The notes beneath the pieces are model-generated. The model was given only the letters and a program-made list of their open reading frames with translations, had not been told where the DNA came from and ran no database searches. From Magnetospirillum sp. ME-1 (GTDB lineage Bacteria; Pseudomonadota; Alphaproteobacteria; Rhodospirillales; Magnetospirillaceae): a stretch of DNA of 64,000 nt. A program made the position numbers and the translations under genes. Positions 9,945 through 15,991 of the stretch are shown here, piece by piece. Position 1 is the first letter of the stretch. Every line of letters begins with the position of its first letter. The stretch lies in the NCBI RefSeq assembly GCF_002105535.1, contig NZ_CP015848.1, positions 186,001 to 250,000 on the forward strand, given 5' to 3'.

Positions 9945-10340
9945 CGTCGCCGCCGAAGGGCAATGGACGCGAACCGGCGCGAGTCACAAGTCAGCAGCAA
10001 TTGTCACGCGAACATCCTTCGGTCGACACACCATTATAGGACTTCGATCCGCCCTTGCGCCACCGCCGCCCCGTGGTCCGCGCCGGAACAGACGGCAGGT
10101 TCTTTAGAATAAGTCCCGTTAAGGACTATATGCCTTATGGCTATAACCTCACAGCAAAGTGACGAATTCTGACGGCGCCGATACCCCATGAAAGCGGCAT
10201 GTCCACTGGCCTCCGGGAATGGCGGCACGCATCGGAGCCGACCCGGCACCACATTGCGTCACATGGTGCAACGACTTGTTATTGTACGTAACTCGGTGTT
10301 TATGATTTCCCTGTCGAAATTGTTCTGGAGGCTTGACCCC
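9945..10340. other. Intergenic region upstream of an OmpR-type regulator
   Basis: 396 bases without a convincing gene. It is locally AT-rich around 10020-10150 and 10265-10330. A short inverted repeat AGTCC(CGTTAA)GGACT lies at 10112-10127, next to TATA-like sequence, and could be an operator or part of a promoter. I see no tRNA, riboswitch or long ORF. Confidence 0.4.
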
Positions 10341-11099
10341 ATGGCGCGGATCGCGGTGGTCGAGGACGAAGCTCCTCTTCGGGCGGATCTGGTCGAATAC
10401 CTTTCGGCGTGCGGGCACGACGTTGTCGGCTGCGGCGACGGCAAGGAGCTTGACCGCGCCCTGGATGAACGTCCCGTCGAAATCATCATTCTGGACATCA
10501 ACCTGCCGGGCGAAGGCGGCTTCTCCATCGCCGGCCGGCTGCGATCCCACTCCGACGTGGGCATCATCATGCTGACGGCGCGCGGGCTGAACGTGGACCG
10601 CGTGGTCGGCCTGGAGGTCGGCGCCGACGTCTACATGGTCAAGCCGGTGGAGCTGCGCGAGCTGGAGGCCCAGGTCCGGACCCTGGCGCGGCGCATGCGG
10701 GTCTCGGCCGCGCCGCCCGGCACGGGTGAGCCGCGCCCGGCGCACGAGGCCGCCCCGCCCGCCGCCGCCGCCGCCGCCGCCGCGCCCGCCGTACCCACCG
10801 AGTGGATCTACGACCAGCTGACCTGGACGCTGATCGCGCCCGACGGCAAGTCCATCAAGCTGACCGGCAACGAGCGGGTCTTCGTCTCGCTGCTGGTGAC
10901 CCGCCCGGGCGAGCCGGTGTCGCGCGACGAGATCTTCCGGGCGCTGGGCAAGCGCGGCTGGGACCCGGCCGACCGTTCGGTGGATTCCATGGTGCGGCGC
11001 CTGAGGGCCAAGGGCGATCAAAGCTTCGGCCACCCGCTGCCCATCGAATCGGTCCACAGCGTCGGCTACGCCTTCGCCGCGCCGGTCGGCCTAAGGTAG
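10341..11099 (+). CDS. OmpR/PhoB-family response regulator
   Basis: 252 residues. The receiver domain (1-115) has an acidic pair in VVEDE, acceptor Asp52 in ILDINLPGEGG and the conserved Lys in VKPVE. An unusually long Ala/Pro linker (about 125-152, a GCC repeat) connects to a winged-helix Trans_reg_C domain (about 155-250, with GNERVFVSLL, DPADRSVDSMVRRLRAK and HSVGYAF). It should bind DNA when phosphorylated. ATG 10341 is preceded by GGAG. The REC-kinase gene begins three bases after the stop, so the two are probably cotranscribed partners. Confidence 0.95.
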   Translation: MARIAVVEDEAPLRADLVEYLSACGHDVVGCGDGKELDRALDERPVEIIILDINLPGEGGFSIAGRLRSHSDVGIIMLTARGLNVDRVVGLEVGADVYMVKPVELRELEAQVRTLARRMRVSAAPPGTGEPRPAHEAAPPAAAAAAAAPAVPTEWIYDQLTWTLIAPDGKSIKLTGNERVFVSLLVTRPGEPVSRDEIFRALGKRGWDPADRSVDSMVRRLRAKGDQSFGHPLPIESVHSVGYAFAAPVGLR

Positions 11100-11102
11100 C
11101 CG

Positions 11103-12494
11103 ATGGCGGAGCCGCGCAAACTTTCGCTCAAGCCCCGTGGCGATCGCTCCGCCCCCCAGACTTCGGCGCCGCCCTGGCCGATCCTGATCGTCGATGACGA
11201 CGAGCAGGTCCACCAGATGACCCAGGTCATCCTGCGCGATCTCAGCTACCAGGGCCGGCCGTTCAAGTGCATCGAGGCCACCTCGGCCGCCGAGGCCGCC
11301 GCCATCCTGGACCTGCAGCCGGAAATTCCCGTGGTGCTGCTGGACGTGGTGATGGAGACCCCGGACGCCGGTCTGCGCCTGGTCCGCCACATCCGCGACG
11401 AATTGGGCAACCGCCGCATCCGCATCATCCTGCGCACCGGCCAGCCCGGCGACGCGCCCGAGCGCGACGTGGTTCTGGGCTACGACATCAACGACTACAA
11501 GAGCAAGGCGGAACTGACCGCCCAGAAGATGTTCACCGCCCTGGTGGCCGCCCTGCGCGCCTGGAGCGACATCACCACCATCGAGCGCCTGAACACCGAG
11601 CTGTCCGAGTTGAACGCCTCGCTGGAGGCCAAGGTCGAGGACCGCACCTCGGAACTGCGCGAAAGCAACGCGGCCCTGGCCCGCTCCAAGACCCGCGCCG
11701 AGACCGCCCTGCTGCGCGAGACCGAGGCCAAGAACCAGCTGCGCCAGTTCCTGTCCATGGTCAGCCACGAATTCCGCACGCCGCTGGCCATCATCGATTC
11801 CTCGGCCCAGATGCTGCGTATCCGGGTGGAGAAAAGCGACCCCGGCGGCGTGGCCCGCCTGGACACCATCCGGGGCGGCGTGCAGCGCCTGCTGGGCCTG
11901 ATCGACACCTGCCTGGCCGACGAACAGCTGGACAGCGGCCGCATCGTGCTGCACGAGAAGTCCTTCGCCATCGGCCCCATGATCGAGGTCACCCTGGCCC
12001 ATTACCGGGTGGCGTCGCCCACCCACCTCTACCGCGCCCAGGTGGCGCCCGAGCTGGCCGTCTGGGGCGATCCCGGCATGATCGCCCTGGTGATCAACAA
12101 TCTGGTGGGCAACGCCGTGAAGTATTCCCCGGCGGGCTCGGAAGTGACGGTGACCGCCGCCCAGGACGGCGCCGACCTGGCCATCTCGGTCACCGACCAG
12201 GGCATGGGCATCCCCCCCGGCGACCTGCCCCACATCTTCGAGCGCTTCCACCGCGCCGCCAATTCCAAGGGTATTCCCGGGTCCGGCATCGGCCTGCACA
12301 TGGTCCGCCAGATCGTCGAGATGCACGGAGGCGCGGTGACCGTGGACAGCCGCCTGAACGCCGGCTCGCGCTTCACCGTGCGGCTGCGTCCGTCCCCCGG
12401 TCCGGGGGCCGAGGGCATCGATCCTGTGCAAGACGGCTTGAGCGCCCCCGCCCCCGATGATACCGTCCATGATCTTGGTGACGGCAACGGGTAG
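11103..12494 (+). CDS. Receiver-histidine kinase (REC-HisKA-HATPase)
   Basis: 463 residues without membrane segments. The N-terminal receiver (about 25-150) has IVDDDE and acceptor Asp81 in LLDVVMETPDAG. A coiled coil follows (ELSELNASLEAKVEDRTSEL), then HisKA with His222 in VSHEFRTPL, and HATPase with NNLVGNAVKY, DQGMGIP and GSGIGLHMV. A kinase with its own N-terminal receiver suggests a relay input from another kinase. Its receiver is closely similar to that of the diguanylate cyclase at 14537 (shared METPDAG, RTGQPG, APERDV, YDINDY), so one upstream kinase or adaptor may address both. It forms a run with SiaB, SiaC and another kinase. Confidence 0.93.
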   Translation: MAEPRKLSLKPRGDRSAPQTSAPPWPILIVDDDEQVHQMTQVILRDLSYQGRPFKCIEATSAAEAAAILDLQPEIPVVLLDVVMETPDAGLRLVRHIRDELGNRRIRIILRTGQPGDAPERDVVLGYDINDYKSKAELTAQKMFTALVAALRAWSDITTIERLNTELSELNASLEAKVEDRTSELRESNAALARSKTRAETALLRETEAKNQLRQFLSMVSHEFRTPLAIIDSSAQMLRIRVEKSDPGGVARLDTIRGGVQRLLGLIDTCLADEQLDSGRIVLHEKSFAIGPMIEVTLAHYRVASPTHLYRAQVAPELAVWGDPGMIALVINNLVGNAVKYSPAGSEVTVTAAQDGADLAISVTDQGMGIPPGDLPHIFERFHRAANSKGIPGSGIGLHMVRQIVEMHGGAVTVDSRLNAGSRFTVRLRPSPGPGAEGIDPVQDGLSAPAPDDTVHDLGDGNG

Positions 12495-12499
12495 CCATC

Positions 12500-13051
12500 A
12501 TGCTTGCCAAACATTACAGGTCGTTCAAGCACGACCTCGACCAGCGCGGCATCATCTTCTCGTTCTCAGGCTACCTGTCCGAGGAGATCCTCTATTCCCT
12601 GGGCAACGCGCTGCGCCAGAAGATGACGCTGGAGGACGCCAACGTCAGCACGGTGAAGAAGGTTTTCTCCGTCTTCGTCGAGCAGGCCCAGAACATCATC
12701 CGCTATTCCGCCGAAAAGCTGTCCAGCGACAAGGGCCAGTCCATCGAGCTGTCGTCGGGCATGGTGACCATCGGCACCGAGAACGACCGCTTCTTCATCG
12801 TCTGCGCCAACGTGGTACTGGCCACGGACGAGCCCCGGCTGCGGGAAAGGCTGGAACGGCTGCGCTCCATGGACCGCGACGCCATCAAGGCCTACTACAA
12901 GGAGCAGTTGAAGGAGGCCCCCGAGGAACAGAGCAAGGGCGCCACCATCGGCCTGATCGAAATCGCCCGGCGCGCCAGCGAGCCCATCGAATTCGATTTC
13001 GACCCCATCGACGACCAGAAGTTCTTCTTCTGCATGAAGGTATCCATCTGA
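12500..13051 (+). CDS. siaB: SiaB-family protein kinase (DUF6272)
   Basis: 183 residues. The sequence has FSFSGYLSEEIL near the start, a central FVEQAQNIIRYSAE helix, VTIGTENDRFFIVCAN, and a late KGATIGLIEIARRAS motif. This is the pattern of the SiaB/DUF6272 family, atypical GHKL-fold serine/threonine kinases. In Pseudomonas SiaB phosphorylates SiaC, which controls diguanylate cyclase SiaD. Here siaC follows directly (stop 13051, next start 13059). No PP2C phosphatase SiaA is present nearby; histidine kinases occupy the flanking positions. Kinase activity is inferred from the family. Confidence 0.85.
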   Translation: MLAKHYRSFKHDLDQRGIIFSFSGYLSEEILYSLGNALRQKMTLEDANVSTVKKVFSVFVEQAQNIIRYSAEKLSSDKGQSIELSSGMVTIGTENDRFFIVCANVVLATDEPRLRERLERLRSMDRDAIKAYYKEQLKEAPEEQSKGATIGLIEIARRASEPIEFDFDPIDDQKFFFCMKVSI

Positions 13052-13058
13052 GGTGGTT

Positions 13059-13442
13059 ATGGACAATTTGACGATCGCGGCTACGGAACGCTCGCCCGCG
13101 GTGGATTTCGATTTCGCCGCCGGGCGCCTCAGCCTGAAGGGCGAATCCTATCCCGAGGACGCGTCGGCGGTGTTCGGCCCCATTTTCGCCGCCCTGGAGC
13201 CCTTTCTCGGCTCGGCCGGCGGCCGTGAGGTGACCTTCGACTTCGACCTGGCCTATTTCAACAGCTCCAGCGCCAAGGCGCTGATGAACATGTTCCAGAT
13301 GCTCGACCAGGCGGCCGGGGCCGGCTGCCGGCTGACCGTCAACTGGTTCTACGCCCCCGACGACGACACCATGAAGGAGTTCGGCGAGGATTTCAGCGAG
13401 GACCTCGCCCACGTCACCTTCAATCTGGTGGCGGTCGAGTAG
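13059..13442 (+). CDS. siaC: SiaC-family regulatory phosphoprotein (DUF1987)
   Basis: 127 residues. DFDFAAGRLSLKGESYPED at the N-terminus and FDLAYFNSSSAKALMNMF in the middle fit SiaC/DUF1987. The Ser69 region corresponds to the phosphorylated Thr of Pseudomonas SiaC (family alignment by eye). In the known system, unphosphorylated SiaC binds and activates the GGDEF protein SiaD, while SiaB phosphorylates it. ATG 13059 is preferred over the GTG at 13053 because GAGG lies at the right spacing. The GGDEF gene two genes downstream is the likely target (inference). Confidence 0.86.
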   Translation: MDNLTIAATERSPAVDFDFAAGRLSLKGESYPEDASAVFGPIFAALEPFLGSAGGREVTFDFDLAYFNSSSAKALMNMFQMLDQAAGAGCRLTVNWFYAPDDDTMKEFGEDFSEDLAHVTFNLVAVE

Positions 13443-13447
13443 GCCCC

Positions 13448-14470
13448 TTGAACGGTTTCAACCTCTTCGACGCCGAGGAGAAGAGCCTTGAGCAGGCCGA
13501 GGAACTGCGCCGCCAGCTCGAATCCGCGCCCGAACCGGTCAAAGACGGCATCGCCTCGCTGATCGAGGCCTATAGCCGCAGTGTTCGCGAACAGCGCCGC
13601 CTGGTGCGCGTCTCCGACCGCCTGCAGGCCCAGTTGGCCTCGGTCAACCAGGAACTGGGCCGGCGCCGGGTCGAGGCCGAGGATGCCCTGGAAAGCCTGA
13701 AGGCCGCCCAGGAATCCCTGGTCCAGGCGGAAAAGCTGGCCTCGCTGGGCGCCCTGGTGGGCGGCGTCGCCCACGAGATCAACACCCCCGTGGGCATCGC
13801 GCTGTCGTGCGCCTCCCATCTGGCCGATTCCACCGCCTCCATGACCAAGCTGTTCGAGGCCGACGACATCTCGGTCGAGGATTTCGAGCGCTTCATGGCC
13901 ACGGTCAAGGACACCACCGGCCTGATCCTGTCCAATTGCGAGCGCGCCGCCGACCTGATCCGCAGCTTCAAGCAGGTGGCGGTGGACCGCACCACCTCGG
14001 AACGCCGGCGTTTCGACCTGGCCGCCTATATCCGCGAGACCCTGTCCAGCCTGGGCCCCCATCTGCGTCAGGCCGGCCACGCGGTGCGCCTCGACTGCCC
14101 CGACGGCATCGTCATGGACAGCTATCCCGGCGCCCTGTCCCAGGTGTTGAGCAATTTCGTCATGAACTCGCTGGTCCACGGCTATGACCAGGGCCGGCCG
14201 GGAACCCTGTCCATCACGGTGGAGCGCGACGGCAAGACGGGCGTGCGGCTGGTCTACGCCGATGACGGCAAGGGCATCGCGCCCGAGAACCTGGGCCGCA
14301 TCTTCGACCCCTTCTTCACCACCAGGCGGGGCAGCGGCGGCTCGGGCCTGGGGCTGCACATCGTCTACAATCTGGTAACCGGGACGCTGGGCGGCACCGT
14401 CTCGGCCGATTCTCCCGCCGGCGGCGGCACCCGCTTTTCCATCCAGATTCCCTTGGCGCCCAACACCTAA
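13448..14470 (+). CDS. Cytosolic sensor histidine kinase
   Basis: 340 residues without membrane segments. An N-terminal coiled-coil region (about 1-95) leads to a HisKA-like dimer helix with His109 in GGVAHEINTPVG. The HATPase domain has NFVMNSLVHGY (N box), ADDGKGI (G1), FDPFFTTRRG and GSGLGLHIVYNLV (G2). The HEINTPVG H-box places it among kinases often paired with receiver-cyclases. The start is a TTG five bases after siaC, with a weak ribosome site, which suggests translational coupling. It may phosphorylate the receiver of the downstream cyclase. Confidence 0.9.
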   Translation: MNGFNLFDAEEKSLEQAEELRRQLESAPEPVKDGIASLIEAYSRSVREQRRLVRVSDRLQAQLASVNQELGRRRVEAEDALESLKAAQESLVQAEKLASLGALVGGVAHEINTPVGIALSCASHLADSTASMTKLFEADDISVEDFERFMATVKDTTGLILSNCERAADLIRSFKQVAVDRTTSERRRFDLAAYIRETLSSLGPHLRQAGHAVRLDCPDGIVMDSYPGALSQVLSNFVMNSLVHGYDQGRPGTLSITVERDGKTGVRLVYADDGKGIAPENLGRIFDPFFTTRRGSGGSGLGLHIVYNLVTGTLGGTVSADSPAGGGTRFSIQIPLAPNT

Positions 14471-14536
14471 TCCTTCGTCACACTCCGGCGCAATGCGGGG
14501 GTGGCGTGCCCATGGGCAGGGGTGGAATATGAGCGA

Positions 14537-15991
14537 ATGAGCAAGAACCCGGACGATACCGGCCCGGAACCGGCCGCAAAGACCAAGCTCTCGCTGCGCC
14601 GCACCGGCAGGGCAGGCCCGGCGCAAGGGGCCGCCCCCTGGCCGGTCCTGGTGGTGGACGACGATCCCGACGTCCATTCCATGACCCGGGTGCTGCTGCG
14701 CGACTTCAGCTTCCAGGGCAAGGGCTTCGAAGTGATCAGCGCCATGTCCGGCGCCGAGGCCCGCGCCATCCTCAGCCGCCGCCACGATATTCCGGTGATG
14801 CTGCTCGACGTGGTGATGGAGACCCCCGACGCCGGCCTGTCCTTGATCCGCCACGTGCGCGACGACTTGAGGAATCGCCGCCTGGCCATCGTGTTGCGCA
14901 CCGGCCAGCCGGGCGAGGCGCCCGAGCGCGACGTCATGCTGGCCTACGACATCAACGATTACCGCTCCAAGACCGAACTGACGGCGCAGAAGCTGTTCAC
15001 CTCGCTGATCGGCGGCCTTCGCTCGTGGATCCATCTGTCGACCATCGAAGCCATGGCCTCGACCCTGGAGCGCCGGGTCACCGAGCGCACCTGCCAGCTG
15101 GACGAGGCGCGGCGCTTCGCCGAAAGCCTGGTGGAACTGCTGCCCAATCCCCTGTGGTTCAAGGACCCGGACGGCTCCTTGCGCCTTTACAACCGCGCCT
15201 TCCGCGAGATGTTCGCCGTGGGCGACGACGACTGGCACGGCCGCCCCTCCCACGACACCCTGCCCGAGCCCCTGGCCGGGCTGGACCAGCTGGCGGACCA
15301 GAGCCTCAGTCTGGGCGGATCGGGCGGATTGGCCTTCGAGACCACCATCGACCGCCAGGGCGCCACCCGCACCCTGATGGTCAACAAGGGCGTCGTGCGC
15401 AGCGATTGCCGCGACAAGCCGGACGAGCCCATCGGTACCATCGGCATCGTCACCGACATCACCGAGCGCAAGCGCATGGAAAGCCAGCTGCGCCACCTGG
15501 CCACCACCGACGAGTTGACCGGCTGCCTCAACCGCCGGGCCTTCTTCGCCGCCGCCGAGCAGGAACTGGAGCGGTCCGGGCGCTATGGCGGCTTCGTCTC
15601 GGTGCTGATGATCGACATCGACCATTTCAAGCAGGTCAACGACCGCCACGGCCACGCGGTGGGCGATCAGGCGCTGCGGGCCGCCACGAGCGCCATCCGC
15701 GCCAATCTGCGCGAGATCGACACCTTCGGCCGCCTGGGCGGCGAGGAATTCGCCGCCATCCTGCCCGAGACGCCGCTGTCCGGGGCCTTGCAGGTGGCCG
15801 AGCGGCTGCGCCAGGCGGTCGCCGCCGTCGCCCTGCCCCTGGGCGAAGGCGAGGCGCCGCTGCGCCTGACCACCAGCCTGGGCGTGGCCGAGCGCACCTC
15901 CGCAGATAGCGGCCTGGACCAGATCCTGGCCCGCGCCGACACGGCGCTGTACCGCGCCAAGGCCGCCGGACGCAATCGCGTCCTTGCGTGA
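14537..15991 (+). CDS. Receiver-PAS diguanylate cyclase (REC-PAS-GGDEF)
   Basis: 484 residues. The receiver (about 30-155) has VVDDDPD and acceptor Asp in LLDVVMETPDAG. The PAS domain (about 185-305) ends in DITERKRMESQ. The GGDEF domain (about 320-480) carries GGEEF at about 401-405, and an RxxD product-inhibition site (REID) lies five residues upstream. It should therefore make c-di-GMP and be feedback-inhibited. The neighbours SiaB/SiaC and two kinases suggest dual control by phosphorylation and partner switching. ATG 14537 is chosen; an in-frame GTG at 14522 is possible. Confidence 0.93.
   Translation: MSKNPDDTGPEPAAKTKLSLRRTGRAGPAQGAAPWPVLVVDDDPDVHSMTRVLLRDFSFQGKGFEVISAMSGAEARAILSRRHDIPVMLLDVVMETPDAGLSLIRHVRDDLRNRRLAIVLRTGQPGEAPERDVMLAYDINDYRSKTELTAQKLFTSLIGGLRSWIHLSTIEAMASTLERRVTERTCQLDEARRFAESLVELLPNPLWFKDPDGSLRLYNRAFREMFAVGDDDWHGRPSHDTLPEPLAGLDQLADQSLSLGGSGGLAFETTIDRQGATRTLMVNKGVVRSDCRDKPDEPIGTIGIVTDITERKRMESQLRHLATTDELTGCLNRRAFFAAAEQELERSGRYGGFVSVLMIDIDHFKQVNDRHGHAVGDQALRAATSAIRANLREIDTFGRLGGEEFAAILPETPLSGALQVAERLRQAVAAVALPLGEGEAPLRLTTSLGVAERTSADSGLDQILARADTALYRAKAAGRNRVLA

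Follow-up and report, generated by a model that had tools for sequence, protein, structure and literature searches.

Gene run around siaB and siaC

The window analysed here is a 64,000-nucleotide stretch of the Magnetospirillum sp. ME-1 genome (4.55 Mb, single contig; NZ_CP015848.1, positions 186,001 to 250,000), and the subject of this work is a run of six plus-strand genes that includes siaB and siaC, together with a helical stalk predicted to dock SiaC onto one of the neighbouring histidine kinases. A preliminary description had siaB and siaC flanked by a histidine kinase with a receiver (REC) domain, a second histidine kinase and a REC-PAS-GGDEF protein; the open reading frame (ORF) calls and searches against Pfam and NCBIfam agree with this arrangement and with the gene positions. 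The run begins one gene earlier than first noted, since the gene of an OmpR-type response regulator (10188..11099, + strand), with REC and winged-helix domains by Pfam and a true start that may be a later ATG, ends 3 bp before the first kinase gene. This kinase, HK1 (11103..12494, +), contains by Pfam a REC domain (D81) of a subfamily shared with the cyclase at the end of the run, a HisKA domain (H222) and a HATPase domain. It is followed by a SiaB-family Ser/Thr kinase (12500..13051, +; NF038262, E 1.3e-66; 6kko_A, 1.4e-20) with an aligned catalytic Glu61, which scores 223.5 bits against the NF038262 subfamily cut-off of 85 and falls below the narrower equivalog NF038264 (117.4 bits, cut-off 225). 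SiaC (13053..13442, +), a STAS-like phosphoprotein, exceeds the cut-off of its family PF09345 (144.5 bits, cut-off 24.5; E 1.5e-42; 6kko_C, 2.6e-21) and lies below that of the equivalog NF038265 (93.3 bits, cut-off 150). Its phospho-site Ser71 (Ser69 counted from the ATG; codon 13263-13265) aligns with Thr68 of Pseudomonas aeruginosa SiaC. The two proteins are, by family membership, the pair of a partner switch, as had been proposed. HK2 (13448..14470, +; Pfam, NCBIfam and stalk models) comprises a predicted N-terminal SiaC-docking stalk, a DHp domain (H109) and a HATPase domain, and the last gene (14501..15991, +) encodes by Pfam a REC (D103)-PAS-GGDEF diguanylate cyclase, whose GGEEF at residue 413 is preceded by REID, an RxxD motif that we take to be an I-site. 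HK1 H222, HK2 H109 and SiaC Ser69, all named earlier, are present. The intergenic gaps among the first five genes are 1–5 bp, and the cyclase gene starts 30 bp after HK2. The adjacent siaA, siaB, siaC and stalked siaD that define a SiaABCD operon are not found, there being neither a PP2C nor a stalked GGDEF gene next to siaBC. SiaC is 90% identical to its nearest named relatives, which come from Phaeospirillum and Paramagnetospirillum, in a search that possibly excluded the window's own genome.

The stalk is the feature that links SiaC to HK2. In P. aeruginosa, four SiaC molecules occupy two motifs along the stalk helices in the SiaD dimer, where SiaC Thr68 contacts SiaD Ser82 and Gln86 and the neighbours of Thr68 contact Asp83 and Gln86, and this contact activates SiaD, a GGDEF protein (PMC8457831). 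The second SiaC-binding motif of SiaD is YHKQLRRLEKVARISDRYQQMMRDLNLAL, with a RISDRYQ core known from the crystal structure. HK2 has YSRSVREQRRLVRVSDRLQAQLASVNQEL close to its N-terminus, and its stalk stretch reads YSRSVREQRRLVRVSDRLQAQLASVNQE. Residues 41-69 of HK2, the predicted core SiaC-binding motif (13568..13654, +), align without gaps with the SiaC site of SiaD, keeping R80, S82, D83, R84, Q86 and N93, so that the contact quartet S82, D83, R84 and Q86 corresponds to S56, D57, R58 and Q60 of HK2. The NCBI SiaD model, which is curated and was built independently of this analysis, aligns by its stalk region (model 26-90) with HK2 residues 6-70 at E 1.6e-5, and also matches 28 of the 36 stalks of our A2 set. 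The predicted docking-stalk domain spans residues 3-72 (13454..13663, +), as delimited with a model from 22 non-kinase effectors (E 5.1e-22). When the stalk model is restricted to 12 GGDEF proteins, it finds HK2 at 1.3e-23 on a 1000-sequence scale (HK1 2.1, cyclase 56), and one built from adenylate cyclases and HD-GYP proteins only finds it at 3.9e-11 (HK1 72, cyclase 100). In the whole genome the A2 stalk model has a single match, HK2, and genome searches with this model and PF09345 yield one stalk and one SiaC, encoded side by side. No Pfam family exists for the stalk, Pfam matches to the 36 members being weak and scattered, and no Pfam or NCBIfam match ties it to RsbU. A Pfam scan of HK2 gave no sensory or other input domain besides the kinase core, which leaves the stalk as its sole visible input. 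In an AlphaFold2 model of HK2 (44-row alignment, mean pLDDT 84), one helix, 29-137, bears both the motif and His109, and a Foldseek search for HK2 retrieved an ordinary histidine kinase core only (LvrB, HK853, ZraS). The SiaC-binding helix of SiaD is, judging from these sequence comparisons, probably located on the N-terminus of HK2 and not on the REC-PAS-GGDEF cyclase.

SiaC loci and stalked effectors in other genomes

The survey covered 161 SiaC-type loci including the window, some of them copies from two collections, of which 160 have a SiaC ORF by profile (L107 is without one). A stalk protein is present in 149 of these 160 loci, copies included. By short sequence patterns the 158 stalk proteins comprise 85 histidine kinases, 45 GGDEF proteins, 14 HD-GYP proteins, 8 class III cyclases and 6 unassigned, and Pfam agreed for one member per class: a cyclase (L048), a GAF-HD-GYP protein (L057), a GGDEF protein (L142) and a hybrid kinase-REC-Hpt protein (L066). 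One of the unassigned stalk proteins, in L126, proved by Pfam to be a PP2C. Identical SiaC sequences were collapsed into 136 distinct loci, classed by the nearest stalk protein as 58 kinase-type, 44 GGDEF, 13 HD-GYP, 7 cyclase, 3 unassigned and 11 stalk-less. The nearest stalk gene lies within 100 bp of siaC in 122 of the 125 distinct loci that have a stalk. The SiaC phospho-site is Ser in all 58 kinase-type loci, and Thr in 8 of the 44 GGDEF-type. On the SiaC tree, which has few columns and leaves 61 of 133 inner branches open, 12 changes are required to account for the four effector classes. In G035, of the window's family by tool grouping, siaA, siaB and siaC stand with a 263-residue stalked GGDEF protein instead, and in many kinase-type loci of that family an OmpR-type regulator sits upstream of HK1.

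The spacing between stalk and effector is regular. Of 45 stalked GGDEF proteins, 42 could be measured (L186, L167 and L190 could not), and in 40 of them the DxLT that opens the GGDEF domain lies 21, 28, 35, 49 or 56 residues after the motif Ser, all multiples of seven; the 49-residue class, with many Methylobacterium members, holds 22 of these 40. The two outliers, L147 and L130, with distances of 19 and 26, probably reflect a spurious DxLT match ahead of the true one, since their distance to GGDEF is 125, as it is for most members of the 49-residue class. In the kinases, the motif Ser and the phospho-acceptor His are separated by 53 residues in 55 of 63 distinct proteins (77 of 85 with copies).

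SiaC and the stalk also occur together across genomes. In a set of 60 relatives, own genome included, SiaC is above the cut-off in 39, and the stalk is found in 38 of them, the remaining one being G039, in which SiaC lies ~400 bp from a contig end; none of the 21 SiaC-less genomes has a stalk, G027, with a sub-threshold SiaC match, being counted among these. In a 398-genome sample of the phylum, with up to 14 candidates scored for the stalk in each genome, SiaC is above the Pfam cut-off in 66, the stalk is present in 61 and both are present in 59; only the stalk was found in G136 and G276 (E 9.8e-4), and only SiaC in G112, G127, G200, G222, G252, G275 and G326. The SiaC and stalk samples were taken as the same draw, since their size and the listed genomes agree, genomes with no match being only partly listed.

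The preliminary description had reported no PP2C gene, in contrast to the known Sia pathway. This holds within the window, which contains none of the seven SpoIIE matches found in the genome, but probably not for the genome at large, since one of these matches is a candidate SiaA-type phosphatase. This 551-aa protein (L008; match G000:C1:3018918-3019778), encoded ~2.8 Mb from the siaBC run, matches the SiaA model NF038263 over its PP2C half (model 380-656; E 2.2e-66; 224.7 bits, equivalog cut-off 700), and is the one SiaA-model match at E ≤ 1e-30 in the genome among the 16 of 57 candidates scored. Other PP2C genes were considered as the phosphatase and set aside: of L004-L008, run against NCBIfam, only L008 matched SiaA, and of L004, L005, L006 and L008, run against Pfam, three are REC-PP2C proteins. 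In the 60-genome set, a SiaA-model match covering the PP2C half, at the E ≤ 1e-30 threshold that we chose and with no more than 16 candidates scored in each genome, is present in 39 of 39 SiaC genomes vs 0 of 21 others, and lies within ~2 kb of siaC in G018, G023, G034 and G050. The L008 match and this co-occurrence point to a SiaA that seems to be unlinked in this genome, not lost; with a SiaA-type phosphatase probably encoded elsewhere, the missing gene need not set this locus apart from the Sia pathway.

As a separate observation, the SiaA model matches, by its leading portion up to ~410, proteins that have no PP2C half, one in G022 (G022:C463:16183-17403) and others in G016, G024, G034 and G037. 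G022 is a SiaC-less genome and the sole one of the 21 with a SiaA-model match at this threshold, to the sensor half alone. The sensor part of SiaA seems, from these matches, to be reused on other outputs.

Twin receivers and the proposed signal path

The receivers of HK1 and the cyclase had been described as nearly the same, and the comparison bears this out: they are identical at 84 of 125 positions (67%) and share METPDAG, RTGQPG and YDINDY. Among nine matches to the cyclase receiver in the genome (E ≤ 0.001, itself included), HK1 has 68% identity and the other seven only 31-38%, so that the likeness exceeds that of any two receivers. This near identity suggests that one phosphodonor may serve both. 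The receiver subfamily, defined as at least 50% identity over >80 residues, is found beside SiaC in 53 of the 58 distinct kinase-type loci vs 0 of the 75 loci of GGDEF, cyclase, HD-GYP or stalk-less type; at a 55% threshold, counted per stalk protein, the figures are 54/63 vs 0/66. Within the 58 loci, the subfamily receiver is carried by a kinase in 50 and by a GGDEF protein in 14. The gene after HK2 in L118/L062 encodes a 943-aa REC-kinase with HEIRTP and no GGDEF motif.

We are rather confident in reading the locus as a SiaABC partner switch whose output would be a histidine kinase in place of the diguanylate cyclase found elsewhere: SiaA and SiaB would set the state of SiaC, SiaC would dock on HK2, and HK2 would phosphorylate both receivers. 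By homology, SiaB would phosphorylate SiaC at Ser71 and the unlinked SiaA-type PP2C would remove the phosphate. Unphosphorylated SiaC, as on the homologous stalk of SiaD, would clamp the parallel N-terminal helices of the HK2 dimer at RxSDRxQ, and the signal would run down one continuous helix to His109, setting the kinase/phosphatase balance of HK2. The predicted phosphorylation targets are the twin receivers, that of HK1 and, in this genus, that of the REC-PAS-GGDEF cyclase, and gene order and domains suggest two outputs, transcription via HK1 and the OmpR-type regulator and cyclic di-GMP (c-di-GMP) via the cyclase.

Several results weigh against this reading. A PDB search with the HK2 N-terminus reaches SiaD weakly (E 1.8 and 0.81), so the docking claim rests on the family models and the NCBI SiaD model. 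Some of the contact residues of SiaD differ in HK2, which has E for R74 (as do GGDEF stalks such as that of L142), L for Y85, Q for M88, A for R90 and S for D91; some of those of SiaC differ as well (D79 to Q, R103 to T and I71 to A), and HK2 carries a single motif against two in SiaD. The HK2 structure model has a pTM of 0.50, with confidence falling to a block mean of 68 at residues 91-110. No stalk is found in 11 of the 160 SiaC loci (L071, L074, L077, L157, L163, L164, L165, L168, L170, L192 and L193), and the receiver subfamily is absent from five kinase-type loci; three loci of unassigned type stand outside the 58 and 75, and two of them (L055, with a split HK2, and L124) have the subfamily. 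The kinase-type loci are clustered by descent, with 8 label changes on the SiaC tree vs 44.3 when shuffled, so the spacing and receiver counts hold far fewer independent events. Finally, because SiaC neighbours supplied the sequences for the stalk model, there is some circularity in how often it finds a stalk in SiaC genomes, though not in the lack of stalks in the other genomes.

The sign of the switch is a part of this reading on which we lean only slightly to one side: by analogy, docking of SiaC would activate HK2. It is doubtful that SiaC instead mainly turns the docked HK2 to a phosphatase or an inactive state, so that activity of SiaB, not of SiaA, would raise receiver phosphorylation; this variant draws on the ability of a rigid coiled coil to lock either state and on the fact that many kinases of HK2's type are bifunctional. 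Against it, the same contact activates SiaD (PMC8457831). The balance between the two outputs stands at even chances. Transcription, by way of HK1 and the OmpR-type regulator, may be the main conserved output, with the cyclase a lineage-specific addition whose receiver would be a duplicate of that of HK1 and c-di-GMP a side branch, as would fit the REC-kinase found in 50 of the 58 kinase-type loci and the REC-GGDEF protein in 14, as well as two window receivers that are by far each other's best matches in the genome; L072 (copy L095) speaks against it, having a REC-GGDEF gene after HK2 and no HK1 in the stretch examined.

A different architecture had been suggested at the outset, with two parallel inputs onto the cyclase: SiaC binding to it directly and HK1 and HK2 phosphorylating its receiver. 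The cyclase belongs to the same gene run as siaB and siaC, P. aeruginosa SiaC does activate a GGDEF protein (PMC8457831), and the GGDEF domain of the cyclase scores 177 bits with the NCBI SiaD model (cut-off 290), yet PleD scores higher, at 186, and the match covers the GGDEF domain only (model 85-252). No stalk was detected in the cyclase with either class-restricted stalk model, nor in any of 100 ORFs (69 distinct) with this receiver subfamily, and 44 of the 58 kinase-type loci have no REC-GGDEF gene. The combination that makes SiaD, a GGDEF protein with a SiaC-binding stalk, is absent from the run, where the cyclase has GGEEF without a stalk and HK2 a stalk without GGDEF. Direct binding of SiaC to the cyclase is for these reasons very improbable, and a single serial path, from SiaC to HK2 to the receivers, accounts better for what had been taken as two inputs.

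The proposed path shares with SiaABCD of P. aeruginosa (PMC8457831, PMC7647112) the SiaB-family kinase, the place of the SiaC phospho-site, a stalked effector by siaC and, probably, a SiaA-type PP2C in the genome. It differs in bearing the stalk on a histidine kinase and not on a GGDEF protein, in having one motif vs two and Ser vs Thr, in the apparently unlinked SiaA and in the added receivers, second kinase and OmpR-type regulator. As with RsbT and RsbU, a partner-switch protein would act through a coiled-coil linker, although the partner here is the STAS-like SiaC and there RsbT (PMC12143880). In HsbA-HsbD and BgrV-BgrR, too, named in PMC8457831, a STAS-domain partner controls a c-di-GMP output, but it acts there on the cyclase itself, whereas here a kinase would stand between. 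It has been suggested that DUF1987 proteins modulate adjacent proteins (PMC8457831), the RsbU N-terminal domain is reported on several effector classes, including histidine kinases in operons with rsbT, and exchangeable coiled-coil linkers have been proposed (PMC12143880); the present case agrees with both the neighbour and the linker ideas. The literature searched, with subscription papers mostly outside it, yielded no pair of SiaC and a histidine kinase, no SiaC target that is a histidine kinase, no cross-class stalk module, heptad spacing or tie between kinase stalk and receiver subfamily, and no paper joining Magnetospirillum and SiaC.

It is fairly likely that SiaC is a general plug and not an activator of diguanylate cyclases as such, with the unnamed ~70-residue N-terminal stalk coupling one switch to histidine kinases, and hence to phosphorelays, to GGDEF proteins, class III cyclases and GAF-HD-GYP phosphodiesterases, perhaps also to PP2C, and with coiled-coil spacers cut in heptads making the outputs exchangeable. 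The proposed wiring of the locus would bring together in one operon, by a contact of few residues, Ser/Thr partner switching and His-Asp phosphorelay, which are generally treated as separate, and the SiaC family (those 66 of 398 genomes) would gain a predictable target, the neighbour with an RxSDR stalk. The heptad-spaced linkers would represent a natural experiment on helical signal passage into kinases and cyclases.

Unusual stalk proteins

Some surveyed loci deviate from the arrangement of one stalked effector per SiaC. L155:6495-8368 belongs to a locus with two stalk proteins of different class, a kinase and a GGDEF protein, and the L124 locus has a stalked kinase and a second stalk stretch cut at the contig end; one SiaC may serve two effectors in both. 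HK2 is split in two ORFs after the stalk in L055:1787-2086 and in L096, so that the stalk would be made alone; either an error in the sequence or a lost kinase may lie behind this. In L066:2780-5053 the stalk is on a hybrid kinase with its own receiver and Hpt domain by Pfam, and the stalked kinases of L047, L054 and L159 are perhaps hybrid too, on the grounds of their similar length. A Magnetococcales protein, L126:1300-2331 (= L166:15007-16038), is a SpoIIE/PP2C phosphatase (Pfam, 1.9e-37) with a stalk of its own, encoded 5.7 kb from siaC; it is possibly a SiaA equivalent recruiting its own substrate, or another effector.

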